From Chlorobiota bacterium (GTDB lineage: Bacteria; Bacteroidota; Bacteroidia; Bacteroidales; F082): 64,000 nt of DNA. Positions 13,520 to 52,783 of this stretch are shown here, piece after piece; positions within the stretch are counted from its first letter, which is position 1, and each line of letters begins with the position of its first letter. The position numbers and the translations under genes are program-made. Location: assembly GCA_013151215.1 (NCBI GenBank), contig JAADIS010000062.1, positions 1-64,000 on the forward strand, written 5' to 3'. The notes under the pieces were generated by a model that was given only the letters and a program-made list of their open reading frames with translations, had not been told where the DNA came from and searched no databases.

Positions 13520-14806
13520 TTAATTATACTTTCTTTTATAGAACCAATGCTCCTGAATGCTTACGCCAAAGTTAACATTAAAAAAGTTCTCTTGTATCAA
13601 ATTATCTTTTAAAGTTCCCCTGCGCCCTACTTCAAGACCCAAATCGAGAGTGGTTTTCGACTTTTTGATCGGGAAACTTACACCAAAACTTATACCAAAC
13701 TCGTCAATCTGGCGTCCGTTTACCTTTAGGTACGATTGTTCGTACCTTGCTCCAGCCCTATAGGTTACCCTCTTGAACAAAGATGAGATATTAGTGTGAT
13801 CCGGTGTGAACTGGCCGCCAAGCGCAATGCGCAAGGTGTTTTGCAAGGTGTCGGGGACGCCGAAAAACGAAAATTCGGACCACTGTTGCCATTCTACATC
13901 CGCACCGAGCAACCATGACCCGGGTCTTTTGTAAACAGCACCGAAACCCAGCCTCGCCGGTATAACCATATTGCCTTTAACATCAGGTTTGTACTCTATC
14001 GTATCCTTTGTTTCTTCAACAACGTCGTAATAACCCCCTGTTATCGTGCTCGATATATAATTGTTGACGGCACCGACATTGAACTGGTTGGCATAAATAG
14101 CCCCAAGAGTAAACAAGTCGTTGTTTTTCAGATGAATGTCGTATTGCAGGCCATAATCGAAAATAAACCCGCTCGCCCTTGTGTTCGATTCCACTTTGGT
14201 CCCGTAAATGTTCAACGAATCCAAAAACAGCACCTTCGACGAACGGTTACCGTTTCCGAAAATATATGAGGCATCCACGCCAAACCTTAAATTTTCCCCA
14301 AGGTTAAAGGCATTGCCCCAGTTTACCCTGTTTATTCCCCCCTCGCCCTCCAGTTGGTTTAGAATATCCGAAAATTCATATTGGCTCATATCAATGGTTA
14401 TATCAATGTTATAACCTATCTCACTAAAAGGCATTAAGCCAAAGGATGTTTTCCACCACTTGCTAATAGGAAATCCCAGCAAGATATAACTTAATGTGGC
14501 CCTGTTGGAATTCTCGGAGAATTGATCGGTTCGCAGGTTAGTGAAATCCGCGATAATCCCGGTTTCAAAAACGATGGAAGTGGAATCAAAAAGACCGTAA
14601 GAAGCCGGATTGCCGGGATTGACCATTGTCGGGTCGCTCATCCCAATGGAAATCCCGCCCATACCCCTAAGACTGGCATTTACATTCTTGCCGTGCAACT
14701 CGCCTAGGCCAAAACGCGAATATGGGGAGTTGATCTTACTCTGCGAGTAGGACATACCGCTAAAAACCACGGCTATAAACACAAAAACTAGTTTAATTTC
14801 TCTCAT
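13520..14806 (-). CDS. Outer membrane beta-barrel protein
   Basis: A 428-residue protein with signal peptide (MREIKLVFVFIAVVFSGMSYSQ) and alternating-residue strands throughout, ending in the aromatic-rich strand NVNFGVSIQEHWFYKRKY. The N terminus INSPYSRFGLGELHG, then LRGMGGISIGM and NPGNPASYG, is typical of FadL/PorV-like Bacteroidota barrels. It is probably an outer membrane transport or assembly barrel of unknown substrate. Its start overlaps the 3' end of coaX by 14 nt, indicating translational coupling. Confidence 0.9.
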   Translation of the reverse strand: MREIKLVFVFIAVVFSGMSYSQSKINSPYSRFGLGELHGKNVNASLRGMGGISIGMSDPTMVNPGNPASYGLFDSTSIVFETGIIADFTNLRTDQFSENSNRATLSYILLGFPISKWWKTSFGLMPFSEIGYNIDITIDMSQYEFSDILNQLEGEGGINRVNWGNAFNLGENLRFGVDASYIFGNGNRSSKVLFLDSLNIYGTKVESNTRASGFIFDYGLQYDIHLKNNDLFTLGAIYANQFNVGAVNNYISSTITGGYYDVVEETKDTIEYKPDVKGNMVIPARLGFGAVYKRPGSWLLGADVEWQQWSEFSFFGVPDTLQNTLRIALGGQFTPDHTNISSLFKRVTYRAGARYEQSYLKVNGRQIDEFGISFGVSFPIKKSKTTLDLGLEVGRRGTLKDNLIQENFFNVNFGVSIQEHWFYKRKYN

Positions 14807-15524
14807 TAAAATCTAATATTCCCTTTAATCCATCCAAAACTAAAAATGGGGCTGCAAATGTCTTATATTTAAATAACTTATCAAAATATTTGTGGTCGCC
14901 TCCCGTAATTATTGTTTCCAACTGATTATTGTTTGATTTAAAACTATTTATAAAACCGTTTATCTCACCTGACAAACCATTTATTACACCTGATAATATT
15001 GAGCCATCAGTAGTGTCCCCGATTAGGTCGGGCATTTCAAATCCCTTAAGCTCAACAACCGGCAGCCTGCCGGTAAACTTATTCAATGCCTTAAAGCGCA
15101 TTCTTAAGCCCGGGCTTATTGCGCCGCCTAAATATTCGTTGTTGTTATTTATGAAATCGTAGGTAATGCATGTCCCTGCATCGATGACCAATACGTTTCT
15201 GCCGGGAAATATCCTTGAAGCACCAACCACGGCGGCTATCCTGTCCCTGCCCAATGTTTGCTTGCTCGAATATTTGTTGTTTATGGGCAAAGGAGTATCA
15301 TAGTCGAGGCTCATCAAGCTTGCTTCCTTCGACATAAGATCCATCAGTTCGCCATCACCATTCCTCACGCTGGAAACAATAACGGACTCTATAATGTATT
15401 CTTCATCTAACCGAAGAAAGTCGTTGGGCTTAAAATGGCTTACGGAAGTATGGAAAACCATATTATCACGGTCATAAACGGCTAGTTTATAGAGGGTGTT
15501 GCCTATGTCTAATATCAGTCTCAT
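14793..15524 (-). CDS. coaX: Type III pantothenate kinase
   Basis: Catalyses the first step of coenzyme A synthesis, pantothenate + ATP to 4'-phosphopantothenate. Hallmarks of the ASKHA-fold CoaX type are visible: the N-terminal phosphate loop MRLILDIGNT with Asp6, RDRIAAVVGA, the second phosphate motif VLVIDAGTCITYDF, GGAISPGLRMRF, and ITGGDHKY near the C terminus. I place the start at the ATG at 15524, because the DIGNT motif normally begins at residues 5-10 and the -7 box lies just upstream. At 243 residues it is of normal size. It leads the run coaX-barrel-TPR-lptC. Confidence 0.96.
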   Translation of the reverse strand: MRLILDIGNTLYKLAVYDRDNMVFHTSVSHFKPNDFLRLDEEYIIESVIVSSVRNGDGELMDLMSKEASLMSLDYDTPLPINNKYSSKQTLGRDRIAAVVGASRIFPGRNVLVIDAGTCITYDFINNNNEYLGGAISPGLRMRFKALNKFTGRLPVVELKGFEMPDLIGDTTDGSILSGVINGLSGEINGFINSFKSNNNQLETIITGGDHKYFDKLFKYKTFAAPFLVLDGLKGILDFNERN

Positions 15525-15539
15525 CTTATGAAATATGTG

Positions 15540-15547
15540 CAAAAGTA
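15540..15547 (-). promoter_or_regulatory. -7 box for the coaX operon
   Basis: TACTTTTG on the minus strand, a perfect TAnnTTTG match 16 bp upstream of the chosen coaX start. It supports that start, because a longer reading would place the start codon almost on the box. No clear -33 TTTG. Confidence 0.5.
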
Positions 15548-18522: not shown

Positions 18523-18834
18523 AACTGGTTTTTGCAGAAAACATTATGTGTTTTACGATGAGGCGATTTATTGATGACCCATCATCCTCATATCCACATT
18601 TCCCCTTCAAAACAATTAACCCATCAACCTATCAACATTTCTTGTGTTTTTTGTTTCTCGCAACGCCGCAACGCCGCTAAGTGCTGATTGCCCCAAACCT
18701 TAAAAAACCGTTGACTTTGTACCATTAACCCATAAACCCATTGCACCATTAACCCATTACCCCCTCTTTCAAACCAATCACTTATTTATTACATTTGCAT
18801 CAATAAATAATATATTTTAATTAAAACTTCTGAT
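18523..18834. repeat. Intergenic region with short degenerate direct repeats
   Basis: ACCATTAACCCA occurs twice (18721-18732 and 18745-18756), with weaker relatives such as ACAATTAACCCA and CCATCAACC around 18611-18630. CGCAACGC is repeated in tandem at 18659-18674. No open frame is supported. Only the MscS promoter box at the right end has an evident role. Confidence 0.6.
18790..18797 (+). promoter_or_regulatory. -7 box for the MscS gene
   Basis: TACATTTG, a perfect TAnnTTTG match 37 bp before the ATG at 18835. Confidence 0.5.
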
Positions 18835-37203: not shown

Positions 37204-39570
37204 TCACTCGTCCCTCAAGCTGTCAACAGGGTTGCGGTTTGCTGCCGAGATGCTTTTTATGGATATGGCTGAGGCGGCGACCAACAGGGCTATCAACCCG
37301 CCAAAAATGAAATACCACGGGCTTAATTCCGTTTTGTTGGCGAAATTGTCGAGGAATTGCGCCGAGACTATATAGGCAGCCGCAAAGGCCGGCAGCATTG
37401 CCCAGACCACCCAGGCCAAAATATCTGTGAGCAGCTTGGTCATGACCTCGAACGAACTGCTGCCCAGCACTTTTCTTAATCCAATTTCCTTAGTTCGTTT
37501 TTCGACATTATAGACCGAAAGGGCGAACATGCCGATAAAGCTCAGGAAAATAGCCAGTATCGTGCTCAGCAAAACCATATTGAAATAGCGCTCCTCTTGA
37601 GCAAATTTAGCATCAAACCTTTGTTTTAAAGCGAAATCGGTGAAATGGTAAGCAGGCATGAAACCCTCAAATATTTTTTTAATCGCCAAACGCTTTTCGG
37701 CCGTATATTCCCCTTTGATCCTCAAATAAAAATTGTTCGCCCAGGGGGAATAGTTTGTGAGGCATAAAGGCTGTATCAATTTGCCTGAGTTCTCGTTATA
37801 ATAGAAATCGCGCACAACACCGATGATTTTCAAAGCTTGTTCCTCGAACATTATGAGCGATTTCCCGACGGGGTTTTCCAGCTCAAGCATCTTAACGGCA
37901 CTCTCGTTTAAGATTATCCCGTGTTTGTCTTCGTCGCTGTCGCTGAAAAACCGGCCATCGACCAACTGCAGCTGCATTACCTGGCAAAAGCCAGGCTGTA
38001 CCCTGTATTGATTGATGCTCCGGCTGTCTTCCTCGCTTTGTCCCGACAAATAAACCCCTTGTCCGCTAACGCCCCCGCCCATATAATGCGTGCTGCTGCC
38101 AACTGCTTCAACAAAGTTTTGCTTCTTCAGCTCTTGTTTTATCGCCTGGGCTTCATCGCCCAAAGCCTTGTCGAAATTGTTTATGCCGATTACTTTTTCC
38201 ACATTAAAGCCCAGGGGAATGTTTTTGAGGCAAGTGATCTGCGCGTTCAAAACCAATAGGCTTACTATCAGGCTTATGCTGATAAAAAACTGTATCATTA
38301 CCGATGAAACCGCCAACCATTTTTTTCGTTTCAGGGTTTTTGCACCTCCCTTTATGGCGTCAACGGCCCTTAGCCTCGAAAGATAAACGGCCGGATAACT
38401 GCCGGCAATAAAAACCAATAAGACAAAAAATACCGCTAATGCGGCAATCATCGAACCTGACATGAAATCATCAATGCTTAAATCAGCCATCATCATATTT
38501 GAGAAGTACGGAAGGCCGGACATGGCAAGCAAAAACGCCAGGCCAAAGGCTATTAGGCAAACGAAGGTCGTTTCTAGATAAAACATAAGGCGCAAATCAA
38601 ACAAGCCGGCGCCAAAGGATTTGCGCATACCTATTTCCAATAATCTTTTTTCGCCATCATAAACATATAGGTTCACGAAATTTATTATCGCTATCAGTAG
38701 TATGAAAGCAGCCAAACCCGCAACCAGCAGTATTTTATCGATGCTGCCCTTGGGCGATAGGTCGAAATCGCATTTGGTATATAAATGCAATTGGTCCAAG
38801 GGCTCAGTACCAGAGCTTACCACTGCGCTGTTCGAGCTGAAAATATCCATCAGGTATTTATCGTTCAGCTTTGATATTTTTTCTTGAAGGGCTTTTCTGT
38901 CGCTGTTTTCGCCAATAAGATAATAAGTAAAAAACTCAAGACTGCCCATATAAAGTGCTGGGTTTATTGATTCCATACTCACCAAAGCATCGAAACGGAA
39001 ATGAGTGGTTTTAGGCAGATCCTCAATAATTCCGCCAACAACATAATCCTCCGATCCCATCTTTAGCATCCTGCCAAGGCCGTTGTTTGTACCAAAGATC
39101 CGCGTTGCCAACGATTTACTTAAAACAATCTTGTTTTCCCCCTTAAGGGCATCGGCTTTGTTGCCAACGGACAAGTCAAGGCCGAAAACATCGAAAAATT
39201 CAGGGTCAACATAAATAAGCTTGTTTATGCTGAAGGCGTTACCCTCATAATAAGCTTTGTTTTGCCATCCTCGATAAATCTGGCAAGCTTTTTCTATTTC
39301 CGGTATTTCGTTGGGAATTTGGGTATAAGCCTTGCGCGAACAAATAGGGTAATTGTTTATTGAATTTCCCTCTTTAATAGTATTGTAAAGCCTAAGCACG
39401 CGGTTTTTGGTCGTAAAATGCTTGTCATAAGCCGTTTCGTGCCAAACATAAACCATAAGTAGCAAAAAGGCCGACAACCCTATTGCCAAACCCGGAAGGT
39501 TGATAAACAGGAGCATGGGGCTTCTCCTCATATTCTTCACCGTCTGTTTGATCATAAAAACCTTATTCAT
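37204..39570 (-). CDS. FtsX/MacB-type ABC transporter permease (third of three)
   Basis: A 788-residue permease with the duplicated MacB layout: TM1 near residues 20-42, a MacB_PCD periplasmic domain, a three-helix FtsX core (about 280-400, ending AVFFVLLVFIAGSYPAVYLS with RLRAVDAIKGG), then a second periplasmic domain and second FtsX core (about 670-780, with TKEIGLRKVLGSSSFEVMTK). The C terminus NRNPVDSLRDE matches the RRNPVEALRYE of the two upstream permeases, so all three are paralogues. It overlaps the preceding permease gene by 8 nt and is the last gene of the operon. Substrate unknown. Confidence 0.92.
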   Translation of the reverse strand: MNKVFMIKQTVKNMRRSPMLLFINLPGLAIGLSAFLLLMVYVWHETAYDKHFTTKNRVLRLYNTIKEGNSINNYPICSRKAYTQIPNEIPEIEKACQIYRGWQNKAYYEGNAFSINKLIYVDPEFFDVFGLDLSVGNKADALKGENKIVLSKSLATRIFGTNNGLGRMLKMGSEDYVVGGIIEDLPKTTHFRFDALVSMESINPALYMGSLEFFTYYLIGENSDRKALQEKISKLNDKYLMDIFSSNSAVVSSGTEPLDQLHLYTKCDFDLSPKGSIDKILLVAGLAAFILLIAIINFVNLYVYDGEKRLLEIGMRKSFGAGLFDLRLMFYLETTFVCLIAFGLAFLLAMSGLPYFSNMMMADLSIDDFMSGSMIAALAVFFVLLVFIAGSYPAVYLSRLRAVDAIKGGAKTLKRKKWLAVSSVMIQFFISISLIVSLLVLNAQITCLKNIPLGFNVEKVIGINNFDKALGDEAQAIKQELKKQNFVEAVGSSTHYMGGGVSGQGVYLSGQSEEDSRSINQYRVQPGFCQVMQLQLVDGRFFSDSDEDKHGIILNESAVKMLELENPVGKSLIMFEEQALKIIGVVRDFYYNENSGKLIQPLCLTNYSPWANNFYLRIKGEYTAEKRLAIKKIFEGFMPAYHFTDFALKQRFDAKFAQEERYFNMVLLSTILAIFLSFIGMFALSVYNVEKRTKEIGLRKVLGSSSFEVMTKLLTDILAWVVWAMLPAFAAAYIVSAQFLDNFANKTELSPWYFIFGGLIALLVAASAISIKSISAANRNPVDSLRDE

Positions 39571-41899
39571 ATCTCAGAGCTTCAACGGGGTTTCGGCGGG
39601 CAGCCTTGACGGTCTGCAAACTAGCGGTAAACAATACGATCAAAAGGGTTGTCAAACCCGACAGGCAGAAAACCCACCAAGCTATGTCGGTTTTATAAGC
39701 AAAGCTTTCGAGCCATTTTTCAAGGGCAAGATATGCCAAAGGGCTGGCAATAACAAAAGCCGCCACCAGCCACTTTATTAAATCGGCGTTCAAGAGTTTC
39801 AATATCCCCATGACAGATGCCCCGTTCACTTTCCTAATCCCTATTTCCTTGGTTCGGTTCAGGCACATCTGGAATGTCTGCCCCAAAACACCCATGAAAG
39901 TCAATATCAAGGCGATTATGGCCGCTATGGCTATTGCTTTTCCCAAACGTTCTTCCGATTTGTACATTGCGTCGAAATGCTCATCGTAAAAAGTATAGTT
40001 CATTGGTTCGTCGGGGATAAACGAAGCCCATGTTTTTTCGAGCGCCCTCATCTGATTGCCAATGTTTCCGGCCTTTAGGCGGATAGTGGCATACCGCAGG
40101 TTCGAAGCATTATTGTTTCTCGCCGACATTATGCAAACGGGCCCGATTTTGTTGTGCATCGACTCGACAAAAAAATCATCGCTAATGCCCACAACTTCGT
40201 AACCGCCCTTTCTTCCGTTCTTAAAACGCTTGCCGTCGAGGTTTTCCCATTCATATTGCTTAAAGGCTTCCTTGTTTAAAACACAGCTCGTTCCCAGCTC
40301 GCCAAGTTTAAAGGCATGGCCCTCAATTATCTTAATGCCGAATGTCTTGAAAAAATTATTGTCAGCCGAAAGGCATTTTATCATAATTTGTTTGTCGTTA
40401 ACCACTTCGCCCATGTTCAAATTAACATTTCCCGGCATACCGCTGCTCAGGGTGAAGCTTTCAATCCAGTTGAAATTACTTAATTGTTCGCGCAAAACCG
40501 CCTGTTTTTTAAAGTTGTATGGAAAATTCAGCCGCAGCAGGTTCTCCTTGTCAAAACCCAGGTCGATATGTTTTACATAATCAAGCTGTTTGAAAAAAAA
40601 GATGGTTAGTATTATCAGAAAAATGGAAATACTAAATTGGAGCGTCGTCATTATTCGCCGCTTTGTTTGTTTTATTGCCGGCTTATGAATTGAGGAAATA
40701 GAGTCGGCAATACTGTATTTTGTTAGAATAAATGCAGGTATCAAGCTTAAAACCACAATAATGGAGAAAAGTACCGAAAGAACTATTGTCAGCATAAGTG
40801 GACTTAAAAGCAGCTGTGCGTGCAGGCGGTTGTCGAATAAGCTGTTCGACAAGGGGAGAAACAATTGGAACATAAAAACAGAGAGTATTGCCGAGATGGC
40901 TACGCTAAGCGACACCTCAACGAAGGAAAATGCCAGCAATTGTTTATGGCTGGCGCCGATTACTTTTTTGATAAAAATGATTTTTAGTCCGGAATATTGT
41001 ATCGAAATAAAGAAATTGATGAAATTAATAGTGGAAAGCAATAGCACCAATAATCCGATTCCGCTGAAAAGCAAGACCAGGTTCCAGTTTCCGGTTTCTA
41101 TGCCCTCGTCGTCAAAATGCCCCGAAAGGTGTATGTCGCTCAATCTTTGCATGCTCAAGGAGCTAAGCACATAATTTTTTGATTTGGCGATAGTGTCCAG
41201 CTTGGTTTGTAATGCTTGTGCATCAATATTTTTTTTGAGAAGAAGGAAATGATCGGTGGGATTCCAGCATTTGCCGTTTGTGCAACTCCTGTTGAACACA
41301 AAGTCCTTGTTTTCGGCATTGGTGAAAACATCTGCCTGTATGCTTGAGTTAAGGGGGAAATCTTCCACTACGGCCGAGACCTGTCCTTGCATATCGTTTA
41401 AGATAGTGATCGGTTTTCCGAGGGCGTCGTTGCTCGGGAATAGTTTGCCCGCCAATGAACGTGTTATTACCACTGATTTTTTTCCTGTAAACAAAACATC
41501 GCTGTTCGACTGGATCACCCTTAAAGGGAAAATCCGGAAAAAGTCGTCGGTCGTGTTTATTATTCCACTGGCAAGTGCGAAATTACCACCTGACTTTACC
41601 GATATATCGAAACCGGCCGAAAGCTCCATAGTGCAGGCTTTTTCAACTTCAGGAAGCTTTTCCTTTAGTTCCCTGTTTAGCTTGAAATCCAAGCCGCTTA
41701 GGTTTTCCTCATCGTCAACCACCCTTACAATACGCTCGTGATGGGGCATCCAACTGTCCATAGTGGTTTCCCCGAAAACATATAAGCCGATATTTAAGCA
41801 AACGGCAAAGCCCACCGACAAGCCGACAATGCTCATTATCGAATATAACTTATTGCGCTGCATTATCCGTAAGGCAAGTTTTAAATGGTGTTTTATCAT
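39563..41899 (-). CDS. FtsX/MacB-type ABC transporter permease (second of three)
   Basis: A 778-residue paralogue of its neighbours with the same order: TM1 (about 18-40, SIMSIVGLSVGFAVCLNIGL), periplasmic domain, FtsX core 1 (about 285-400), a further membrane helix near 425, periplasmic domain 2, and FtsX core 2 (about 665-770) containing TKEIGIRKVNGASVMGILKL. The first three helices after the second periplasmic domain and the RRNPVEALRYE tail repeat those of the permease at 41936. The gene is 36 nt downstream of that one and shares 8 nt with the next, so all are co-translated. The expected role is mechanotransmission or export with the ATPase at 44291. Confidence 0.92.
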   Translation of the reverse strand: MIKHHLKLALRIMQRNKLYSIMSIVGLSVGFAVCLNIGLYVFGETTMDSWMPHHERIVRVVDDEENLSGLDFKLNRELKEKLPEVEKACTMELSAGFDISVKSGGNFALASGIINTTDDFFRIFPLRVIQSNSDVLFTGKKSVVITRSLAGKLFPSNDALGKPITILNDMQGQVSAVVEDFPLNSSIQADVFTNAENKDFVFNRSCTNGKCWNPTDHFLLLKKNIDAQALQTKLDTIAKSKNYVLSSLSMQRLSDIHLSGHFDDEGIETGNWNLVLLFSGIGLLVLLLSTINFINFFISIQYSGLKIIFIKKVIGASHKQLLAFSFVEVSLSVAISAILSVFMFQLFLPLSNSLFDNRLHAQLLLSPLMLTIVLSVLFSIIVVLSLIPAFILTKYSIADSISSIHKPAIKQTKRRIMTTLQFSISIFLIILTIFFFKQLDYVKHIDLGFDKENLLRLNFPYNFKKQAVLREQLSNFNWIESFTLSSGMPGNVNLNMGEVVNDKQIMIKCLSADNNFFKTFGIKIIEGHAFKLGELGTSCVLNKEAFKQYEWENLDGKRFKNGRKGGYEVVGISDDFFVESMHNKIGPVCIMSARNNNASNLRYATIRLKAGNIGNQMRALEKTWASFIPDEPMNYTFYDEHFDAMYKSEERLGKAIAIAAIIALILTFMGVLGQTFQMCLNRTKEIGIRKVNGASVMGILKLLNADLIKWLVAAFVIASPLAYLALEKWLESFAYKTDIAWWVFCLSGLTTLLIVLFTASLQTVKAARRNPVEALRYE

Positions 41900-41935: not shown

Positions 41936-44251
41936 TTATTCGTACCTCAGTGCTTCGACCGGGTTTCGGCGGGCAGCCCTAATAGTCTGCAAACTAACGG
42001 TAAGCAGTGCTATAAGGACGGCAAAAACACCCGACACGGCAAAAACCCACCAGTCGAGGGTGGTTTTATAAGGAAAGTTGCTAAGCCATTTGTGCATTGC
42101 GTAATAAGCAAGCGGACAAGCAATTACAAAGGCAATGACAACCCATTTCAAAAAGTCGCGGTTAAGCATCCCGACTATTTGCAATACGGTTGCGCCGTTA
42201 ACTTTGCGGATACCTATTTCCTTTATCTTTTGTTGGTTGTAAAAAACCGACATGGCAAATATTCCCATTACCGAGATTATTATCGACAGTATTGCGAAGA
42301 AGCTCACGATGGCGGTGGTCCTTTTTTCCTTGTCGTACCACTTTTGGATTGTTGAGTCAACGAAACCGAAGTCGAAAGGCATGCCGTTGGTAAAATCGCC
42401 ATAGGCTCTTTTAACCTTCTCGAGCGTTGAAGCAATATTGTCCCCCTCTACCTGGACAAAAATCTGCCAGGGGAAATCGTCCTTGCCCATTTGCTGTACC
42501 AATGCCATCCCTATTTTGCGGTGCAACGACTCGAAATAAAAATTATCGATTATGCCGAGCAAGGGTTTTTGACCGTTATATGCCTTGAAAGTTTGCGGCA
42601 GGGAGTTCAGGCCGAGCTTCTCCGCTGCCATGCGGTTCAGCCAGACACCATCTTTTGAATATGCGGCCGCAGTGGGCGTTATCTTCATCCGCATCATGGG
42701 GAAAAACGAAGAATCAACGATAAAGACCTGAAAACTAACAGGCTTGCCCTCGTATTGATACGATTGGTTATTGCCGCCATCTATTGGGCTGCCGGCAACA
42801 AACGAAACTCTTTTCACCCCCGCTATCTTGCTCATCTCGTTTTTAAAGCCCGCCATTTCGCTGTTTGACAGATTATTGTCGAACCAAATTATGTTCTCGG
42901 TTTTAAATCCGAGCTCATGATTTTGCATGAAAGCTGTTTGCCTGGCGATTATTATTGTGGAAACAATTAAAACTATGACCACAACATATTGAAAACCTAT
43001 CAATATCTTAGAATACACACTTTTGCTTTTCCGCCTGAGCTCACCTTTGATGACCTGAACGGCATTTAGTTTGGTAATTAAGTAGGCAGGTATAATTCCC
43101 GAGACAAAGCCAATTAGAAGCACAAACAGCAAGGATAGCAAAATAGTGCTTCGGGAGAACTCATCGGCAAGCTTAAGTTCGGTATTCAGCAAGTTGTTCA
43201 ACACAGGCTCGATCATGAAGCTTAATAAGCCAGCAAGCAAAAAAGCGACGAAGCACAATATTATGGATTCGCTGACGTGCTGCATAATTAATTCGCCCCG
43301 GCTGCTGCCGAGGAGTTTTTTAATGGCAATTTCCTGGGTTCTGCTACTTGAATGAGCGATGGTAAGGTTCATATAATTGATGATCGCCAAAACCAATATC
43401 AGAAAAACAATGGCAAACAAAACGCTGATCAGGGTTTTGCTGTTTTGCCGGATGGCCCTTCCCTTGACATGGCTAAAATAACTGTCGGACAAAGCTTCGA
43501 ATTTTACTGTTTTCGCATATCCGCTACTGTACATCCAATAATCATTATTGAACATCTCAAGGACACGGGCCGCTATCGAGGGCAGGTCGGTATGGGGCTT
43601 TGCCAAGAAGTATAAACCGAACGAACTGTTTCCAAGGCTTTTCAAAAGACCGGGATAGTTCCAAAAATCTGCCAGTGCCCTGAAGTTAATAATGGCATCG
43701 CATTTAGTGAAATTGGAAGTTTCAGAAATATCGCCGACAACACCCTTAACAACACAGTCGATACCATCAATGCTTATTTGTTTGTCCAAAGGTGATTTTT
43801 TGCCGAAAACCCTCAGGGCGAACTCTTTCGACAAAACAACCGAGTTCCTGGTCTTCAGTGCCGTCTCGGGATTTCCCTCAAGGAGGCCGAACGAAAAGAT
43901 ATCGAAAAAAGTGGAGTCGGCCAGCAAATACTTGAACTTTACCTTTAGGCCGTCTTGCGTTACCAATATCCCTTCATTATCCGAAATACGCGTATAGCTT
44001 TCTATTTGCGGGAATTCGTTTTGCAGCCAAAGGCCCACGGGAGGGGCATAGCCCGCCTGGCTTTCGTTTATGAGCCTGTAAATCCGCGGGCTGTTTTTTT
44101 GCAGGCTGTTTACGGTAAGCTCATTTTTTATATAAACGCTCAGGAGAATCACGAAGGTCAAAGAGACGGTGAAGCCCAACACAGTCACCAAGGCATATAA
44201 CTTGCTGCTTGCAAGGTTTTTTATAAATGTCCTAAAGTTTTTTAGCCACAT
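41936..44251 (-). CDS. FtsX/MacB-type ABC transporter permease (first of three)
   Basis: A 771-residue permease, closest to the ATPase gene. TM1 spans about residues 17-40 (ALVTVLGFTVSLTFVILLSV). FtsX core 1 follows the first periplasmic domain at about 280-390 and contains EIAIKKLLGSSRGELI. Core 2 (about 660-765) contains IKEIGIRKVNGATVLQIVGM and ends at RRNPVEALRYE. In MacB-like systems such permeases dimerise around the ATPase and pass force to the periplasmic adaptor and TolC; here three different chains could give homo- or heterodimers. It follows the ATPase stop after 39 nt. Confidence 0.92.
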   Translation of the reverse strand: MWLKNFRTFIKNLASSKLYALVTVLGFTVSLTFVILLSVYIKNELTVNSLQKNSPRIYRLINESQAGYAPPVGLWLQNEFPQIESYTRISDNEGILVTQDGLKVKFKYLLADSTFFDIFSFGLLEGNPETALKTRNSVVLSKEFALRVFGKKSPLDKQISIDGIDCVVKGVVGDISETSNFTKCDAIINFRALADFWNYPGLLKSLGNSSFGLYFLAKPHTDLPSIAARVLEMFNNDYWMYSSGYAKTVKFEALSDSYFSHVKGRAIRQNSKTLISVLFAIVFLILVLAIINYMNLTIAHSSSRTQEIAIKKLLGSSRGELIMQHVSESIILCFVAFLLAGLLSFMIEPVLNNLLNTELKLADEFSRSTILLSLLFVLLIGFVSGIIPAYLITKLNAVQVIKGELRRKSKSVYSKILIGFQYVVVIVLIVSTIIIARQTAFMQNHELGFKTENIIWFDNNLSNSEMAGFKNEMSKIAGVKRVSFVAGSPIDGGNNQSYQYEGKPVSFQVFIVDSSFFPMMRMKITPTAAAYSKDGVWLNRMAAEKLGLNSLPQTFKAYNGQKPLLGIIDNFYFESLHRKIGMALVQQMGKDDFPWQIFVQVEGDNIASTLEKVKRAYGDFTNGMPFDFGFVDSTIQKWYDKEKRTTAIVSFFAILSIIISVMGIFAMSVFYNQQKIKEIGIRKVNGATVLQIVGMLNRDFLKWVVIAFVIACPLAYYAMHKWLSNFPYKTTLDWWVFAVSGVFAVLIALLTVSLQTIRAARRNPVEALRYE

Positions 44252-44290
44252 AGTCGCAATATTAAATGATTAAATGCGCGATTTGGAACA

Positions 44291-44971
44291 TCATATATTG
44301 GCCTTTTCCATTATCACCTGCCCGTCGAGCATGTTTATTGTGCGGTGGGCAAAAGCGGCATCGCGGTTTGAGTGCGTGACCATCAAGATAGTAACGCCAT
44401 CCTGATTTAGCTCGGTAAGCAGGTTCATTACTTCGATGCCGTTTTTTGAATCGAGGTTTCCGGTCGGCTCGTCGGCAAGTATAAGTCCCGGGTTGGCGAC
44501 CACGGCCCTGGCAATGGCCACACGCTGCTGTTGGCCGCCAGAAAGCTGCTGTGGATAATGCTTGGCCCTGTGGCTGATCTTCATCCGGGCCAGCACCTCC
44601 TTGACCTTTTTCTTGCGTTCGGCAGAGCTCATTTTAAGGTATAGCAAAGGTAGTTCCACATTGTCGAAAACATTTAGTTCGTCGATGAGGTTAAAGCTCT
44701 GGAAAATAAACCCAATATTCCCCTTCCTGAATTTAGTGCGGTTCTTTTCTTTTAGGTTGCTGATGTCGTTGCCCTTGAAAATATATTTTCCTTCTGATGG
44801 ATTGTCGAGCAAGCCGACAATGTTCAACAAAGTGGACTTGCCACAGCCCGATGGCCCCATTATTGCAACGAACTCTCCCTTCTTGTTGATGTCTAAATCC
44901 ACGCCGTTTAAGGCATAGGTTTCAATTTCTTCGGTTCTGAACACCTTTGTTAATTTTTCTGTTTTTATCAT
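44291..44971 (-). CDS. ABC transporter ATP-binding protein (MacB/LolD type)
   Basis: A 226-residue ATPase that would energise the three permeases encoded after it. All nucleotide-binding motifs are intact: Walker [11 protein letters not shown]-loop [14 protein letters not shown], signature [14 protein letters not shown], Walker [14 protein letters not shown] and the switch His in [12 protein letters not shown]. The size and the N-terminal start [23 protein letters not shown] (read as separate short blocks) are those of the MacB/LolD/FtsE group. It sits between the adaptor and the first permease. Confidence 0.96.
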
Positions 44972-45021: not shown

Positions 45022-46289
45022 TTACCGAAACACTACCCGCTCATTGTCCCCAAAATCGTCATAAGCCGAAACTATTACCCTTTCGCCGGGCCCGAGGCCT
45101 TCTAGCAGTTCGTAATACTTGGGGTTTTGCCGCCCTATTTTAATATTGCGCCTGTTGGCCGATTTCCTGTCAGGAGCAAGCACGAATATCCACTTATCCA
45201 CTGCCCTCCTGTTTTCTGGAAGAAGCTGCCCCTGGGGAGCAACAATGATTTCTGCGGGCTGCCGAGCTGAAGCCTGACGAAGTATGTTTGGCCGGTTCGC
45301 ATGTTTTGCGGCTTTTTACCGCTGAAGACCATTTCGACGGAGAAGCGGCCATCGCGGACTTCAGGTAATATCTTCCTGATTTTCAGCTTAAACTCCTGCC
45401 CCTGCCGCTCTAGGATAGCCCCCAGGCCTACTTTTACCTTATCGATATAATGTTCGTCGATATCGGCTATGACTTTATAAGATGTGAGTATGTGCATTTG
45501 GCCGATACGGCCTCCCTTTGGTACTGACTGCCCAATTTCTACATCAAGGCTCGTAAGCTGGCCGTCAACGGGAGCAACGAGGTTTAAGTTTTCCTGCCTT
45601 TGCCTTACTAATTTGAGGTTCAGGCTCATATTGCGTAAATTCTCCTTCATCTGATCAACCTGTATCGACCTGTATATGGAATCCTGCCCTTGCCTCTCGA
45701 TATAAAGCTGATAGCTCCTGCCGGCAAAATCATAATCTTCTTCCGATTTCAAAAACTCTTCCTTCGATATCAAGCTGTCGGCGTATAAGGTTTTGTTTTG
45801 CCGATAAGTTCTTTTCTTGCGTTTTATATCGAACTCGAGGTTCAGCAGCTCGCGTTTTATCTGCAATCTTTCCTGCTCCATAACAACCATGGTGTTCCTG
45901 AGAAAATTGCTTTTTTCGGCCAGCTGGGCTTCGCTGTTCAGTATGCTCAAGCTCAAATCGGGATTGCTCAGCCTTAGTATCACATCCCCTTTTTTTATCA
46001 TGCTTCCTTCCTCCACAACTTTTTCTTCCACCCTTCCGCCTTCTCGGGCATCGAGGAAGACAGTGGCTATGGGCTCGACGGTACCGCTTATGGAAATATA
46101 GTCGTGAAATATGCCCTTGCTGACCGTGTCTATGGTAACCCTCTCAATATCCGTACGGTATGTGGAAACATTATTGGCTAAAAATGCCTCGTAAATGAGC
46201 GCCGACAACAAAAGCGCCCCAATGCCCATATAAATATGCTTCTTTTTAATTCCCTTTTTCTTCTCTATCGGCCTATCCATTATCTCCAT
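45022..46289 (-). pseudogene. HlyD/MacA-type periplasmic adaptor, frameshifted by an 8-bp duplication
   Basis: Membrane fusion protein that would link the inner-membrane ABC unit to TolC. The intact frame from 46289 has TM near residues 20-38, the lipoyl half-motif EGSMIKKGDVILRL, a long coiled hairpin (about 105-235), and NLVAPVDGQLTSLDVEIGQ. It then reaches LLLPRGSFFQKTGGQWI and reads into nonsense, stopping at 45135 (384 residues). At 45187-45202 the 8-mer TATCCACT is perfectly duplicated; with one copy the frame continues as QWIFVLAPDRKSANRRNI... through KYYELLEGLGPGERVIVS to a stop at 45022-45024, which is the normal family C terminus. So the gene is a recent frameshift, a phase-variable switch, or an assembly error. 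Only the last ~40 residues are lost; the shortened protein may keep partial activity. Confidence 0.88.
45187..45202. repeat. Perfect 8-bp tandem duplication in the adaptor gene
   Basis: TATCCACT TATCCACT on the plus strand (AGTGGATA twice in the coding sense). Deleting one copy turns CAG TGG ATA AGT GGA into CAG TGG ATA TTC GTG (Gln-Trp-Ile-Phe-Val) and reopens the frame for about 55 codons. Such short tandem duplications are produced by slipped-strand replication. Confidence 0.95.
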
Positions 46290-46323: not shown

Positions 46324-47655
46324 TTACATTAAAAGGTGGTTCCAGTTCCCGGTTCTGTAAAACTCCAGCATCTGCTTGCGCATTATGTATATTAATCTCG
46401 ATTTCAACAATCCCGCTTTTGCGGAAATAAAGCGCTGCTTGGCCGACTCGAACTCTGTACTGCTCACCAAACCCTTTTCCAGTCGTTTGCTGACATTTTC
46501 AAGGCTTAGCTTGCTGAAGCCATATAATTCGTTCGCCGACAGATATTCATTTCTTGCCGCTTGAAGCTCGTCAACGGCAGTCCATATTTCGCTGTACAAA
46601 TCATCGCGTTGCTTTTCAAGGTCAAGCTTTCTGTCCTCGACGGCAATTTGTTTCCTTTTTATACGGCTATATGCCGAGGCATTGTTGAAAACGGGTATCC
46701 TGATCCCCATGCTGACCCATTGGTTTTGGTTGTTGTTCATCTGGTTTTTATAACTAAGCGTGTCGCCGTCGAAATATCCGGTACTAAATCCTCCCGACAT
46801 ATATATGCTGGGCAGTATGTTTCCCTTTGCCATTGCCAAGTCCTTCCGGGATGCATCTAGCAGGAACTGTTTCTGTTTTACTTCGGGCAATAGGCCAACA
46901 GACATTTTAAACAACGAATCCACGTCAGGTGTTGAGCTTAATGCGGCTACATTTAGGATCGTGCTGTCTATTTCAAAGTAGCCGGAGGCATTAAGCCTGA
47001 GCAGTTGTTTTAACTCGAGCAACGAGCGCCTTGAATTATTTGCTGCCCGTGTCAGGCTCAATTTATCTGCCGCCCACTGGCTTTTAAGTTCCTGTGCCGT
47101 TAAGGGCGATTCCCTTCCCACCTCAACAAACTTCTGCATGCGCTCGAATTGCAGCCCGGACAAATCAAGCTGGTTTTTCGCCACCTCCATTAACCCCTGA
47201 CTGTAAAGAGCCATATAAAACGAACTCATTATCTCGGCTATGAGCATGTTTTTCTGCAACTCGGCCTCTTGGGTTTTCGCCATGAGCAAATACCTGTTGA
47301 ACCTTATGTTGTTCGATTTTACCAAGCCGCGAAACAAGTCCACCGACGAATTTGCCCAATAGCTGTTTCTGTAAGTCCGGTCGTATGTGATGGCGTTGGT
47401 ATTGCCGTCTATGTTCCTTCCAAAATTGACATCGAAAGTGCTTCCAAGGTTTAGGTCGGGAAGTATCGATAACCTGCTCTCCCTTAAATCTATTTCCTGA
47501 GCGTTCACCGCATTATATTTCTTGTTTAATTCTATATTGTTATCCAAAGCATAGTTTATGCATTTAGCCAAGTCCCATTTCACCTGGCCGAAAACGGCTA
47601 AGTCGCTAAGGGCAATAATCGAGATCAGCAACAGAGGTTTAACATTGCGGCCCAT
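46324..47655 (-). CDS. TolC-family outer membrane efflux protein
   Basis: Outer membrane channel-tunnel partner of the adaptor and ABC transporter. I start at the ATG at 47655 (MGRNVKPLLLISIIALSDLA, then VFGQ), which gives a signal peptide and 443 residues; longer frames begin at 47721 and 47751 and would precede the signal with polar residues. Two OEP repeats are visible: about residues 28-225, starting WDLAKCINYALDNNIELNKK, and about 235-440. They carry the long amphipathic helices (ALYSQGLMEVAKNQLDLSGL, KRLEKGLVSSTEFESAKQRF) and conserved Gly/Pro at the barrel turns. It is the first gene of the minus-strand operon and lies opposite the response regulator. Confidence 0.9.
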   Translation of the reverse strand: MGRNVKPLLLISIIALSDLAVFGQVKWDLAKCINYALDNNIELNKKYNAVNAQEIDLRESRLSILPDLNLGSTFDVNFGRNIDGNTNAITYDRTYRNSYWANSSVDLFRGLVKSNNIRFNRYLLMAKTQEAELQKNMLIAEIMSSFYMALYSQGLMEVAKNQLDLSGLQFERMQKFVEVGRESPLTAQELKSQWAADKLSLTRAANNSRRSLLELKQLLRLNASGYFEIDSTILNVAALSSTPDVDSLFKMSVGLLPEVKQKQFLLDASRKDLAMAKGNILPSIYMSGGFSTGYFDGDTLSYKNQMNNNQNQWVSMGIRIPVFNNASAYSRIKRKQIAVEDRKLDLEKQRDDLYSEIWTAVDELQAARNEYLSANELYGFSKLSLENVSKRLEKGLVSSTEFESAKQRFISAKAGLLKSRLIYIMRKQMLEFYRTGNWNHLLM

Positions 47656-47820
47656 TGCTGCAAAAGGCTTCCTACGTATGTCGAATATGGCTGTATTATT
47701 CAAATTATAAAGAATGGACATTAAACATTTGATGAGTTTTTCAAGTTTCATACCAAATAATGCATATAACTAAATATCAGTTATATTCAGTAGTTTATCT
47801 ATGCGCACATTAAAGAAAAG

Positions 47821-47909: not shown

Positions 47910-49274
47910 ATGAAAGGCAAAATACTTATAGTTGATGATAACAAAAGTGTTTTAACAGCACTTGAGATGTTGCTGCAAACCGAGTTTGAGGATGTGGCAA
48001 CATTAAAAACCCCTGATACTATGATCTCGGTGATCGGGCAAAATGACATAGACCTGGTCTTGCTCGACATGAATTTCCGGGCAGGGATAAATTCGGGCAA
48101 CGAAGGCTTATTCTGGATGAGGCAAATCCTCGATTTTGATCCGGGCATAAGTATAGTTATGATTACTGCCCACGGCGATGTTGAGCTTGCCGTGAGCGCG
48201 GTAAAAAAAGGAGCCTTCGATTTTATCTTGAAGCCATGGGACAACAATAAACTGATAAGCACCTTACATGCCGGGCTGAAATTGAGGAAAAGCAAGTTGG
48301 AGACCAAAAAACTAAGGGAGACAACGGTAATATTAAAGCAACAGCTAATGCCGCCGTCCTACTCCCTAATCGGCAAATCGGAGCCCATGCAAAGGGTAAT
48401 GGAAATGATTAAAAAAGTTTCGGGAACCGATGCTAACATACTTATAACAGGCGAGAACGGAACGGGCAAAGAGTTGATTGCCAGAGAAATACATCGTCAT
48501 TCAAACAGAAAAAAAGAAATGCTTGTTAGCGTTGACATGGGAGCCATAAGCGAATCATTGTTCGAGAGCGAACTGTTCGGGCATGTAAAAGGCTCGTTTA
48601 CAGACGCTTCCGGCGACCGTACTGGAAAATTCGAGTTGGCTGACAAGGGAACGCTTTTTCTCGACGAAATAGGCAACCTCAACCCGGGACTGCAAGCCAA
48701 AATGCTCGCGGCACTTCAAAACAGGACAATTGTCCGCCTTGGCAGCAATACTGAAATCCCCATCGACATAAGGTTGATTTCGGCAACCAACAAGAACCTT
48801 GAGGAAATGATTGCCCGCGGCGAATTCCGGCAGGATTTACTTTATAGGATAAACACAATAAGCATAGAGCTGCCACCATTGAGGGAGAGAGGAAACGACA
48901 TTTTGCTCCTGGCCGGGTTTTACCTCAAGAAATATTCTTCCAAATACGACAAAGCGGGTCTAAAGATAAGCTCGCTCGCAGGCCGCAAGCTGCTAAAATA
49001 CAATTGGCCGGGCAATGTCAGGGAACTGCAACATTCCGTTGAAAAGGCAGTTATCCTTGCCGATGATGAGATTCTTGGCGAAAACAGTTTCTCGCTGAAC
49101 GAGAATTTTCACGCAAGGGGCGAAAACTTCAAAAACCAAACCCTTGAAGAAATGGAGAAGGAATTGATCTTACAGAGCATCAGGAAAGAAAAGGGAAATA
49201 TGAGCGCCGTATCCAAAAACCTGGGCATCAGCAGGCAAACTCTTTATAATAAACTTAAAAGATATGAAGTATAA
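47910..49274 (+). CDS. Sigma-54-type response regulator (NtrC family)
   Basis: An activator of 454 residues with three domains: a receiver (about 1-120; acidic pair D9/D10 and phospho-acceptor D53), an AAA+ domain (about 145-375) and a Fis-type helix-turn-helix (about 415-452, GNMSAVSKNLGISRQTLYNK). The AAA+ module has Walker A GENGTGKE, Walker B TLFLDEIGNL and the arginine-finger region. The sigma-54-contact loop reads GSFTDA (228-233), not the canonical GAFTGA. Related GAFTDA variants are, as far as I recall, frequent in Bacteroidota members, so activity need not be lost. It stands divergent from the TolC/ABC operon and shares 11 nt with its kinase, so control of that operon is the natural inference. 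Confidence 0.94.
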   Translation: MKGKILIVDDNKSVLTALEMLLQTEFEDVATLKTPDTMISVIGQNDIDLVLLDMNFRAGINSGNEGLFWMRQILDFDPGISIVMITAHGDVELAVSAVKKGAFDFILKPWDNNKLISTLHAGLKLRKSKLETKKLRETTVILKQQLMPPSYSLIGKSEPMQRVMEMIKKVSGTDANILITGENGTGKELIAREIHRHSNRKKEMLVSVDMGAISESLFESELFGHVKGSFTDASGDRTGKFELADKGTLFLDEIGNLNPGLQAKMLAALQNRTIVRLGSNTEIPIDIRLISATNKNLEEMIARGEFRQDLLYRINTISIELPPLRERGNDILLLAGFYLKKYSSKYDKAGLKISSLAGRKLLKYNWPGNVRELQHSVEKAVILADDEILGENSFSLNENFHARGENFKNQTLEEMEKELILQSIRKEKGNMSAVSKNLGISRQTLYNKLKRYEV

Positions 49275-50625
49275 GCACTTTTATTTTGCAATACTACGAC
49301 GCATTTTCCTGCTTATCGCCCTAAGTTCGGTGGCAACGTATCTGTTTGTTACAAAGGTATATGTGTGGGGATTCATCACGATCGCGCCTCTGGTGCTCGG
49401 AATTTTCAATGTCATCGGCTACTTCAACAAAACCAATAAATGGATTTCCTTTTTCCTGTTGGGAATTGAAAATGAAGATTCAACACTTAAGATTCCCGGC
49501 AAATCTGGCAACAAATCCATCGACGAGGTTTATGAGGGCATAAAAAGGCTAAACGATGTTTTCAAGCAAACAAAGATCGACATCAGCACACAGGAACATT
49601 ATTATCGGTCGGTGATCAACCAGTCGGCAACGGGGCTTTTTTCTATAAACGAAAGCGGAAGGGTGATAAACATCAACCCTGCGGCCGTTAAGCTAACCGG
49701 CTTGCAAGAATATCATCATGTGAACATATTGTCGAATATCAACTCGGCTTTGCCGGGCTTTATTGTGCAATCGGAAAGAAATGACAATAACTCACTTGTG
49801 TTCGAGAACCGCCACGGACAAAAACTATTGTTTAAATTATCTTGTATAAAAACCTCAAAAGGCAATATTAGCCTTGTTGCGGTGAGCGATATCACAAAAG
49901 AGCTCGATAACCGCGAAGTGGATGCCTGGATCAAGCTGGCCCGCACCTTGTCGCACGAAATAATGAACAACATTGCCCCGATAACCACCCTGTCGAAAGT
50001 TATTTCGGGGTATTTTATAAAGAAGGGCACGATAATAAAGGAAGAAGATGTTGATTCAGTTATTATTAAAAACACCGTTAAAGGTTTAAAGGTAATCGAG
50101 GAACAAAGCAGCGGGCTAATGAATTTTGTGGAGAACTACAGGAAATTCACCAAGCTTCCGGATCCTGAGTTTTCAGTAATTGATTTATCGGCTATAATTG
50201 AGAACACTCTTTTGGCCGCGGCGGCATTCAAGGGTTTCGGCTCATTTAAAATAACAAGGAAGATAGCCGGCAACATCTTTGTCAGTGCCGACGAGAAGTT
50301 GTTGTCGCAGGTAATTATCAACCTTTTGAAAAACGCATGCGAAGCCCTTGTGGCAGCCGATATCGAAAACCCCGAGCTTATAGTCGGGCTGTCAAGCGAT
50401 GCTTCTGTAACGCGGCTGGGGATTACTAATAACGGCCCTGGCATTCCTCCCGAAATAAGGGAACAAATCTTTGTGCCTTTTTATACTACCAAAGAAAACG
50501 GTTCAGGCGTAGGCCTTAGCCTTAGCAAGCAAATAATGCTTAAAATGGGTGGTGACGTAATTCTGGATTCGCGGAAAGATACAACTACTTTTACGGTAGT
50601 GTTGGAATTAAATAATAGTATGTAG
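49264..50625 (+). CDS. NtrB-like sensor histidine kinase
   Basis: A 453-residue kinase with two closely spaced N-terminal helices (about 9-28 and 33-52), so almost no periplasmic region. A PAS-like domain follows (about 105-205, SVINQSATGLFSINESGRVI), then the H box RTLSHEIMNNIAPITTL and a C-terminal ATPase with N box VIINLLKNACEAL, G1 TNNGPGIPPEIREQIF, and GVGLSLSKQIM. The soluble PAS sensor and lack of a periplasmic loop suggest that it reads a membrane or cytoplasmic cue. Its start overlaps the regulator gene by 11 nt. Confidence 0.93.
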   Translation: MKYKHFYFAILRRIFLLIALSSVATYLFVTKVYVWGFITIAPLVLGIFNVIGYFNKTNKWISFFLLGIENEDSTLKIPGKSGNKSIDEVYEGIKRLNDVFKQTKIDISTQEHYYRSVINQSATGLFSINESGRVININPAAVKLTGLQEYHHVNILSNINSALPGFIVQSERNDNNSLVFENRHGQKLLFKLSCIKTSKGNISLVAVSDITKELDNREVDAWIKLARTLSHEIMNNIAPITTLSKVISGYFIKKGTIIKEEDVDSVIIKNTVKGLKVIEEQSSGLMNFVENYRKFTKLPDPEFSVIDLSAIIENTLLAAAAFKGFGSFKITRKIAGNIFVSADEKLLSQVIINLLKNACEALVAADIENPELIVGLSSDASVTRLGITNNGPGIPPEIREQIFVPFYTTKENGSGVGLSLSKQIMLKMGGDVILDSRKDTTTFTVVLELNNSM

Positions 50626-50831
50626 TTTTTGTTTTATCATAAATATCACGAAAAACAATTATACTATCTTAATAAACTGTACCTTTACAGTTGAGTCTAG
50701 AAAGACTTTTTATTATACAAAAACATTGTTTGGAAAAGTTTTTAGAAAAATTAATCAGTTTTAATAAGCACAATCCTTAACGAAACCAAAAATTGAACAA
50801 ATAAAATATAAAACTTTAAAAATCAGCAAGT

Positions 50832-51323
50832 ATGAACAAGATCATTAATATTTTCTTATTTATCATAATAGGATATACTTTATCGGCACAAGTATTAAAT
50901 CCTGAAATAGTTTCTACAGCAGGAGAAACATTTCAAGAATCGTCAATACAAATACAATGGACGCTTGGAGAGTTAGCAGTCACAAAAATTGAAAATCCGA
51001 ACGTTCAGATTACTCAAGGTTTTAATCAACCATTTTATATAACTACAGAAGTCAACAACTTACCTGAAAATATTGGTAGAATCAAGTTTTATCCAAATCC
51101 AACAAACAATTACATTAATATAAAGATAGATTATAATCTATCAAGAAAAACACAAATTTTCTTTTATGATATTCAGGGTAAACTAATACAATCGCTAGAA
51201 AGTAATGGAAAACAAATCTCGGAAAAAATTGAAATAATTAACCAAGCAAAGGGCATCTATATTTTAAAAGTTTCCATTGACAATGAAAAATATTCAAAAA
51301 CTTATAAACTTATTAAAAATTAA
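50832..51323 (+). CDS. Small T9SS-sorted secreted protein
   Basis: A 163-residue exported protein. The signal peptide is MNKIINIFLFIIIGYTLSAQ. A short N-terminal module (STAGETFQESSIQIQWTLGE, then QITQGFNQPF) is a frequent Bacteroidota companion of sorting domains. The C-terminal ~80 residues, starting with IKFYPNPTNNYINIKI and ending GIYILKVSIDN, form a type A T9SS sorting signal. The cargo part is so small that the protein may be mainly a cell-surface anchor or a remnant. The base composition is more AT-rich than neighbouring genes. The next gene begins one base after its stop, so they are one unit. Confidence 0.88.
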   Translation: MNKIINIFLFIIIGYTLSAQVLNPEIVSTAGETFQESSIQIQWTLGELAVTKIENPNVQITQGFNQPFYITTEVNNLPENIGRIKFYPNPTNNYINIKIDYNLSRKTQIFFYDIQGKLIQSLESNGKQISEKIEIINQAKGIYILKVSIDNEKYSKTYKLIKN

Positions 51324-51324
51324 A

Positions 51325-52248
51325 ATGATGAAAAAACTTACAGTATTATTATTTGTTCTAAGTATTACAACATTAATTTTCGGACAGGCACCACAAGGAT
51401 TCAACTATCAGGGCATTGCAAGAGATTTATCGGGAAATCCATTAGTAAATAAAAATATAGGATTACGAATAGCAATAATCCAGGATACCGTAAACGGGGA
51501 AGAGGTTTATAAAGAAATTCACGCCATAATAACAAATGATTTAGGATTGTTCAATATAAAAATTGGTTTTGGTTCAATAGTATATGGCTCATTCGAGGAT
51601 ATTGATTGGGGAAGCGGTGATTATTTTATTCAAATTGAAATTGATGAGAATGGAGGTGGAAATTATCAACTAATTGGAACAAGTCAATTGATGAGTGTTC
51701 CCTATGCGCTATTCTCAAGAAATGCAAGCAAGTGGAGCGAAAACGAGAATGGTATAAATTATGATGAGGGTAATGTTGGAATTGGAACAAGTAGTCCAAC
51801 AAGTATTTTGCATTTAAAAAAGCCATTTGGAGATGTGGTACTAACGTTAGAAACTGATGAGGATAATTTAGGTGAGGATGATAACCCAAGAATAGATTTT
51901 TTGCAAGATGGTGAAACTGTTGGATTTAAAGTAGGCCTAAATCAAGAATTAAACCTATTAACATCAGGCAATGACTTTTATTTTCAACCAATATGGCTTT
52001 CTGAATTAAAAACACCAATATTAACACTTAGTATTGATGACGGTGTTCTTGGTGCTGCCCACTATAACGCTAGAGTTGGCATTGGTACAGCAACACCGAA
52101 GTCGAAACTTCAAATAACAGGTGGAGATATATATTTGGAAGAAATTGAATCAGGGGTAATAATGAAGTCTCCTGATGGAAATTGTTGGAAATTAACAGTT
52201 GACAACTTAGGAAATCCCGTGTTTACATCTATTGATTGTCCTGAATAA
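51325..52248 (+). CDS. Secreted protein of unknown function
   Basis: A 307-residue exported protein. I start at the ATG at 51325, just after the stop of the preceding gene, giving MMKKLTVLLFVLSITTLIFG as signal peptide. The N-terminal module (APQGFNYQGIARDLSGNPLV, then IGLRIAIIQD) and the later LMSVPYALFSRNASK are typical of a Bacteroidota family whose members often carry tail-fibre-like or collagen-like repeats. GNVGIGTSSPTSILHLKK and VGIGTATPKSKLQITG are two beta-turn repeats of that type. No T9SS domain is seen at its own C terminus, which ends WKLTVDNLGNPVFTSIDCPE. Surface function is inferred only. Confidence 0.82.
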   Translation: MMKKLTVLLFVLSITTLIFGQAPQGFNYQGIARDLSGNPLVNKNIGLRIAIIQDTVNGEEVYKEIHAIITNDLGLFNIKIGFGSIVYGSFEDIDWGSGDYFIQIEIDENGGGNYQLIGTSQLMSVPYALFSRNASKWSENENGINYDEGNVGIGTSSPTSILHLKKPFGDVVLTLETDEDNLGEDDNPRIDFLQDGETVGFKVGLNQELNLLTSGNDFYFQPIWLSELKTPILTLSIDDGVLGAAHYNARVGIGTATPKSKLQITGGDIYLEEIESGVIMKSPDGNCWKLTVDNLGNPVFTSIDCPE

Positions 52249-52264
52249 CTAATATAAATTACTC

Positions 52265-52783
52265 CTAAGCTCCAACATTGGTAACCGCTTTGGCCATTGC
52301 CATTCCTTCGAGTTCTTTATCGATATGGAACATGCCGGCCTTGTCGCTGCCAACAAGTTTTATTTTGTCGAGTATGGTGCTGAAAAGGGCCTCTTCCTCA
52401 ACTTGCTCGGTGATATACCATTGCAGGAAGTTGGCAGTTGTAAACTCATTTTCTTTTAAAGCAATGCCGTATAATTCGTTTATCGAACCGGTAATAAACA
52501 TCTCATGCTTTAATATTTCGCCAAAGAGGTCGAGCAAAGTGTTGTAGGTCTGCGTTGGTTCCTCCATGGGCAGCAGTTTAGCCTGGCCTCCCCTGTCGGC
52601 AACATAATGTACAAGCTTCAACATGTGTATCCTTTCCTCTTCGGCATGTTTATATAAAAAGCCGGCAGCCCCCGGAAAGCCGTTCGACTCGCACCAAATA
52701 GCCATGGCCAGATATAACCTCGACGAGAACTCTTCTCTGTTAACCTGCTGGTTAATGGCATTTTCTACATTTTTATTCATCAT
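52265..52783 (-). CDS. ftnA: Ferritin
   Basis: Iron-storage protein of 172 residues that oxidises Fe(II) and deposits it in a 24-subunit shell. The four-helix bundle and ferroxidase ligands are visible: EEFSSRLYLAMAIWCESNGF (Glu), FLYKHAEEERIHMLKLVHYV (the E-x-x-H pair), then EHEMFITGSINELYG-like in helix C and LQWYITEQVEEEALF in helix D. There is no haem-binding methionine of the bacterioferritin type. Two adjacent ATGs exist. It converges on the secreted-protein gene across only 16 bp. Confidence 0.95.
   Translation of the reverse strand: MMNKNVENAINQQVNREEFSSRLYLAMAIWCESNGFPGAAGFLYKHAEEERIHMLKLVHYVADRGGQAKLLPMEEPTQTYNTLLDLFGEILKHEMFITGSINELYGIALKENEFTTANFLQWYITEQVEEEALFSTILDKIKLVGSDKAGMFHIDKELEGMAMAKAVTNVGA

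Follow-up and report, generated by a model that had tools for sequence, protein, structure and literature searches.

A perfect 8-bp tandem duplication in the periplasmic adaptor gene of a Bacteroidales ABC efflux operon: a probable lineage-specific gene loss

In the window, by which we mean the whole stretch of 64,000 nucleotides analysed here, an 8-bp sequence repeated in perfect tandem shifts the reading frame of a periplasmic adaptor gene that belongs to an ABC efflux operon. The duplication is best read as an ordinary lineage-specific gene loss by frameshift, real rather than an assembly error (a probability of roughly 0.63), and the function of the pump has likely been lost in this genome. 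The presence of such an operon in a draft genome is not equivalent to a working pump; in practice, one pump can be marked as probably inactive, and the finding has little significance beyond this genome.

The broken adaptor gene and its operon

The duplication occupies positions 45187-45202, where TATCCACT stands twice in exact tandem on the forward strand, forming a run of 16 bases beyond which the period does not extend. On the coding strand the unit is AGTGGATA, likewise present twice, and falls in codon 365 of the adaptor gene. The adaptor frame is normal to Gln-Trp and is followed by 20 foreign residues (ISGYSCLLLTGNRPTGAILK) and a TAG stop at 45135, while the ancestral frame persists from 45189 to 45025 as IFVLAPDRKSANRRNIKIGRQNPKYYELLEGLGPGERVIVSAYDDFGDNERVVFR, with its stop at 45022 (table 1). 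The original prediction, which described a perfect 8-bp doublet, normal reading up to the break and a non-family tail beyond it, is borne out by this reading of the frames; the approximately 55 codons that it expected to be restored by removing one copy are exactly 55, lying in the other frame at 45025-45189.

Table 1. Positions of the duplication, the adaptor gene and its parts, and the neighbouring genes in the window.
Feature	Position	Strand	Remarks
Perfect 8-bp tandem duplication (AGTGGATA twice, coding strand)	45187..45202	-	exactly 16 bases; single copy in G003
Periplasmic adaptor gene (HlyD/RND_mfp superfamily, MacA-like, nearest named model DarC)	45135..46289	-	truncated and frameshifted, 384 aa
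In-frame adaptor body, codons 1-364	45198..46289	-	dN/dS 0.088 against G003
Shifted-frame tail	45135..45197	-	20 codons and TAG, no family resemblance
Stranded ancestral 3′ end	45022..45189	-	55 codons and stop; C-terminal strands of membrane-proximal domain; dN/dS 0.35
TolC-type outer-membrane efflux protein gene	46324..47751	-	intact; upstream of adaptor
LolD/MacB/DarD-like ABC ATPase gene	44291..44971	-	intact; downstream of adaptor
FtsX/MacB-PCD (ADOP-like) permease gene	41936..44251	-	intact
Second FtsX/MacB-PCD permease gene	39563..41899	-	intact
Third FtsX/MacB-PCD permease gene	37204..39570	-	intact
Sigma-54-dependent (NtrC-family) response regulator gene	47910..49274	+	intact; divergent
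Sensor histidine kinase gene (PAS and HATPase)	49264..50625	+	intact

Despite its truncation the adaptor scores 99.3 bits against the RND_mfp profile (TIGR01730; cut-off 94.9), with a match that stops at profile position 267 of 322. Its membrane-proximal domain is incomplete: family residues 365-418, which are present in every homologue with a readable end, are out of frame. A search of this genome for a redundant adaptor returned only one, distant, at 24% identity. The genes that surround the adaptor have fared differently. They are open and under purifying selection, with dN/dS of 0.03-0.16 against G003, the nearest genome and a member of the same genus, and they show no decay; the earlier statement that the other genes of the operon and its two-component regulator are intact thus stands when checked against G003. 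A similar arrangement of genes is found again in relatives, and scans for promoters and terminators near the adaptor gene gave results at chance level.

The operon resembles that of MacAB-TolC in its content, with a TolC-like protein, a LolD/MacB-like ATPase and MacB-PCD/FtsX permeases, and the adaptor, as judged from a model of its intact relative, shares the fold of MacA with lipoyl, hairpin, barrel and membrane-proximal domains. It differs in having a separate ATPase protein and three large permeases, in an identity of only about 19%, and in an adaptor that lacks its C terminus. The top NCBIfam models are those of the darobactin exporter, DarC (NF038010) for the adaptor and DarD (NF038007) for the ATPase, both scoring well under their curated cut-offs (166.8 against 450 bits and 280.3 against 375 bits, respectively); assignment of the adaptor as a DarC equivalog was rejected on this score.

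Comparison with relatives

In G003 the gene shares 91% DNA identity with that of the window, carries one copy of the unit and retains an intact frame of 418 aa. Approximately 90 homologues, drawn from Bacteroidales and Flavobacteriia, have their C termini at positions equivalent to 417-422 aa, with the exception of one (L036) that leaves the alignment early; a second copy of the unit occurs in none of them, and the unit is single in all that could be read across the site. The original prediction had proposed a comparison with related strains and had allowed that homologues might naturally end at the early stop. G003 and the homologues are single-copy at the site and, bar L036, full-length. The orthologue is therefore intact in the nearest relatives and, among the genomes compared, disrupted in the window genome only, as is expected of a lineage-specific frameshift.

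Over the approximately 50.6 kb that can be aligned with G003 there are 43 indels, among which the duplication is the sole uncompensated one to truncate a window gene internally; the remainder are intergenic, compensated or located in the last codons of a gene. Two further genomes of the genus have no close adaptor, and the pump therefore seems dispensable in the genus.

Two genes in the aligned stretch are broken in the opposite direction. A type III pantothenate kinase gene (14793-15542, reverse strand) is intact in the window, and its G003 counterpart (L144, approximately 2231-2976) is frameshifted by one base, which is perhaps an assembly error of that draft. A beta-lactamase-family gene (PF00144; 52846-54111, reverse strand) is open in the window, and its G003 counterpart (L107) is interrupted by an in-frame stop near residue 165. 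With two comparable breaks in the G003 draft, such breaks, whether real or artefactual, are not rare in drafts.

Evolution of the stranded 3′ end

In a frame that is truly broken, the stranded tail should drift. This is the rationale for comparing rates of change on either side of the duplication, a test that rests on few substitutions. Against G003, dN/dS is 0.35 in the tail and 0.088 in the body, while dS is similar in the two (0.26 and 0.29). When replacements are polarised, four in the 54 tail codons and four in the 364-codon body are assigned to the window lineage (Fisher p ~0.012, on these few changes). One of those in the tail replaces Gly372, a position occupied by Gly in 35 of 39 homologues, with Arg. 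A tail-to-body ratio this high is reached in none of 16 intact pairs of similar distance; the tail of G003 is itself somewhat fast, with two changes of its own. The faster amino-acid change in the tail is weak evidence for a genuine mutation that is not especially recent. Of the 'fresh knockout' put forward in the original prediction, a knockout is the best-supported reading, given the single-copy, full-length relatives, the lost C terminus and the acceleration in the tail; the last of these suggests that it may not be so fresh.

These rates bear on the main rival explanation, an artefact of assembly or consensus, in which the true genome is single-copy and the assembler added eight bases, for instance by merging strain variants. 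The window genome is a fragmented draft of 154 contigs, the operon is without decay apart from the adaptor, a mis-join could yield a tandem copy with zero microhomology within a conserved gene, and the G003 draft, too, has genes in the aligned stretch whose breaks are unexplained. To our knowledge, however, short-read assemblers seldom invent a lone 8-bp duplication in unique sequence, and a tail that evolves faster than the body, through changes assigned to the window lineage, is unexpected if the frame is intact. We regard an artefact as unlikely, while giving it more weight than any other rival.

Probable loss of pump function

When the intact G003 protein is modelled (mean pLDDT 85.3), the stretch lost from the window adaptor forms the final strands, and the fold matches MacA of MacAB-TolC (Z 17.5 to 5nik_D). 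C-terminal elements make up most of the membrane-proximal domain in adaptors, and a single Gly353Cys change in this domain inactivates MacA (PMC4446572, PMC4338810). It is through this domain that an adaptor of MacA type is coupled to its ABC permease, so the truncation has probably left the pump inactive.

Could the truncated adaptor work as it is, or be rescued by ribosomal -1 slippage? The body is constrained on average, and EmrA, an adaptor of MFS type, is reported to function without a membrane-proximal domain (PMC4158417). Such domains are, however, found in adaptors of RND transporters and of ABC transporters with prominent periplasmic domains (PMC4446572), which are the kind present here, and the signal of constraint in the body is mostly older than the mutation. 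Slippage would take place at AAAATAG (TTA AAA TAG, where TAG is the early stop): a P-site AAA could re-pair one base back, and the codons that follow would then read the family frame. AAAATAG is nevertheless not a classical slippery heptamer, and it owes its presence to the ATT AAA ATA of the ancestral frame; G003 has the same bases. To either form of retained function we give very little credence.

Gene loss thus remains the preferred reading, and its steps may be outlined as follows. The duplication would have arisen in this lineage after the split from G003, most likely through a replication error without flanking homology; no flanking microhomology appears to be visible at the duplication, given the exact 16-base run. 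It would have shifted the adaptor frame at codon 365, giving a predicted product in which 20 foreign residues stand in place of the membrane-proximal domain's last strands. The wider gap to the start of the ATPase gene may also reduce expression of the downstream genes.

Plain mutation or reversible switch

Spontaneous mutations of this general kind are known from Xenorhabdus, where lrp mutations that do not revert genetically include indels a few bases long as well as 26-116 bp tandem duplications (PMC6786866). The duplication described here is likewise a short tandem one; it differs in being 8 bp long and in having been seen once, in an uncultured genome.

The original prediction had raised the possibility of slipped-strand phase variation, with one copy (ON) and two copies (OFF) switching an envelope transporter. 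Exact tandem repeats can indeed drop a copy by slippage, and as in phase-variable genes with repeat tracts a change in copy number would switch the frame; a slow loss of one copy is possible in principle for any tandem duplication, however. In Bifidobacterium, an ON/OFF switch of pilus expression by slippage is reported (PMC9187656). Unlike such loci, the adaptor gene has only two copies of the unit, below a typical contingency tract of several units or a homopolymer. No repeat tract is conserved at codons 364-365, with no second copy among the homologues, and copy number at the site does not vary among relatives as it does at contingency loci. The apparent relaxation of the tail suggests that selection has not kept up an ON state, the 219 kb surveyed elsewhere in the genome contain no clear excess of 8-bp doublets, and the frameshifts and duplications of Xenorhabdus lrp, once thought to be phase variation, turned out to be plain non-reverting mutations (PMC6786866). 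Searches of the literature turned up no bacterial switch built on two copies of an 8-bp unit. With no positive support, phase variation at this site is improbable, and we hold as slightly more doubtful still the specific idea that a minimal two-copy 8-bp doublet reversibly switches a multi-permease ABC efflux pump of Bacteroidales, so that populations mix pump-ON and pump-OFF cells. Were it true, very short doublets could be contingency loci in Bacteroidota; nothing here supports it.

Short tandem repeats elsewhere in the genome

The 16-mer at 45187-45202 has a single occurrence in the window, and 100 dinucleotide-preserving shuffles did not yield it at all. Perfect 8-bp doublets of any kind number five in the window against approximately 0.7 expected; in a survey of 219 kb drawn from 14 other contigs of the same genome there are 10 against 5.7 expected, five of which lie in one array. 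The occurrence of some perfect 8-bp doublet in 64 kb is thus not surprising by itself, and the significance of the one in the adaptor gene lies in its position together with the comparison with relatives.

Two broader readings of the doublets were considered and rejected. The survey does not point to an 8-bp process acting across the genome, for instance one leaving target-site-duplication scars. The five doublets of the window resembled an excess, but the two others covered by the alignment to G003 (C26), at 44261 and 50078, have no indel there. Another, at 51298, sits in a segment missing from G003.

Longer arrays and one larger difference were also observed. Between genes at 18722-18763, about five 8-bp units (CCATTAAC) form an imperfect array that has many dispersed matches over the contigs of G003 and probably represents a short repeat family scattered through genomes of the genus. 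On another contig of the same genome (L122:17600-17780), an array of units with doubled CATTCGTG at a spacing of approximately 27 bp is probably an intergenic minisatellite. At 50609-52275 the window carries approximately 1.67 kb with two genes, one of which has a type IX secretion sorting domain, where 36 bp stands in G003.
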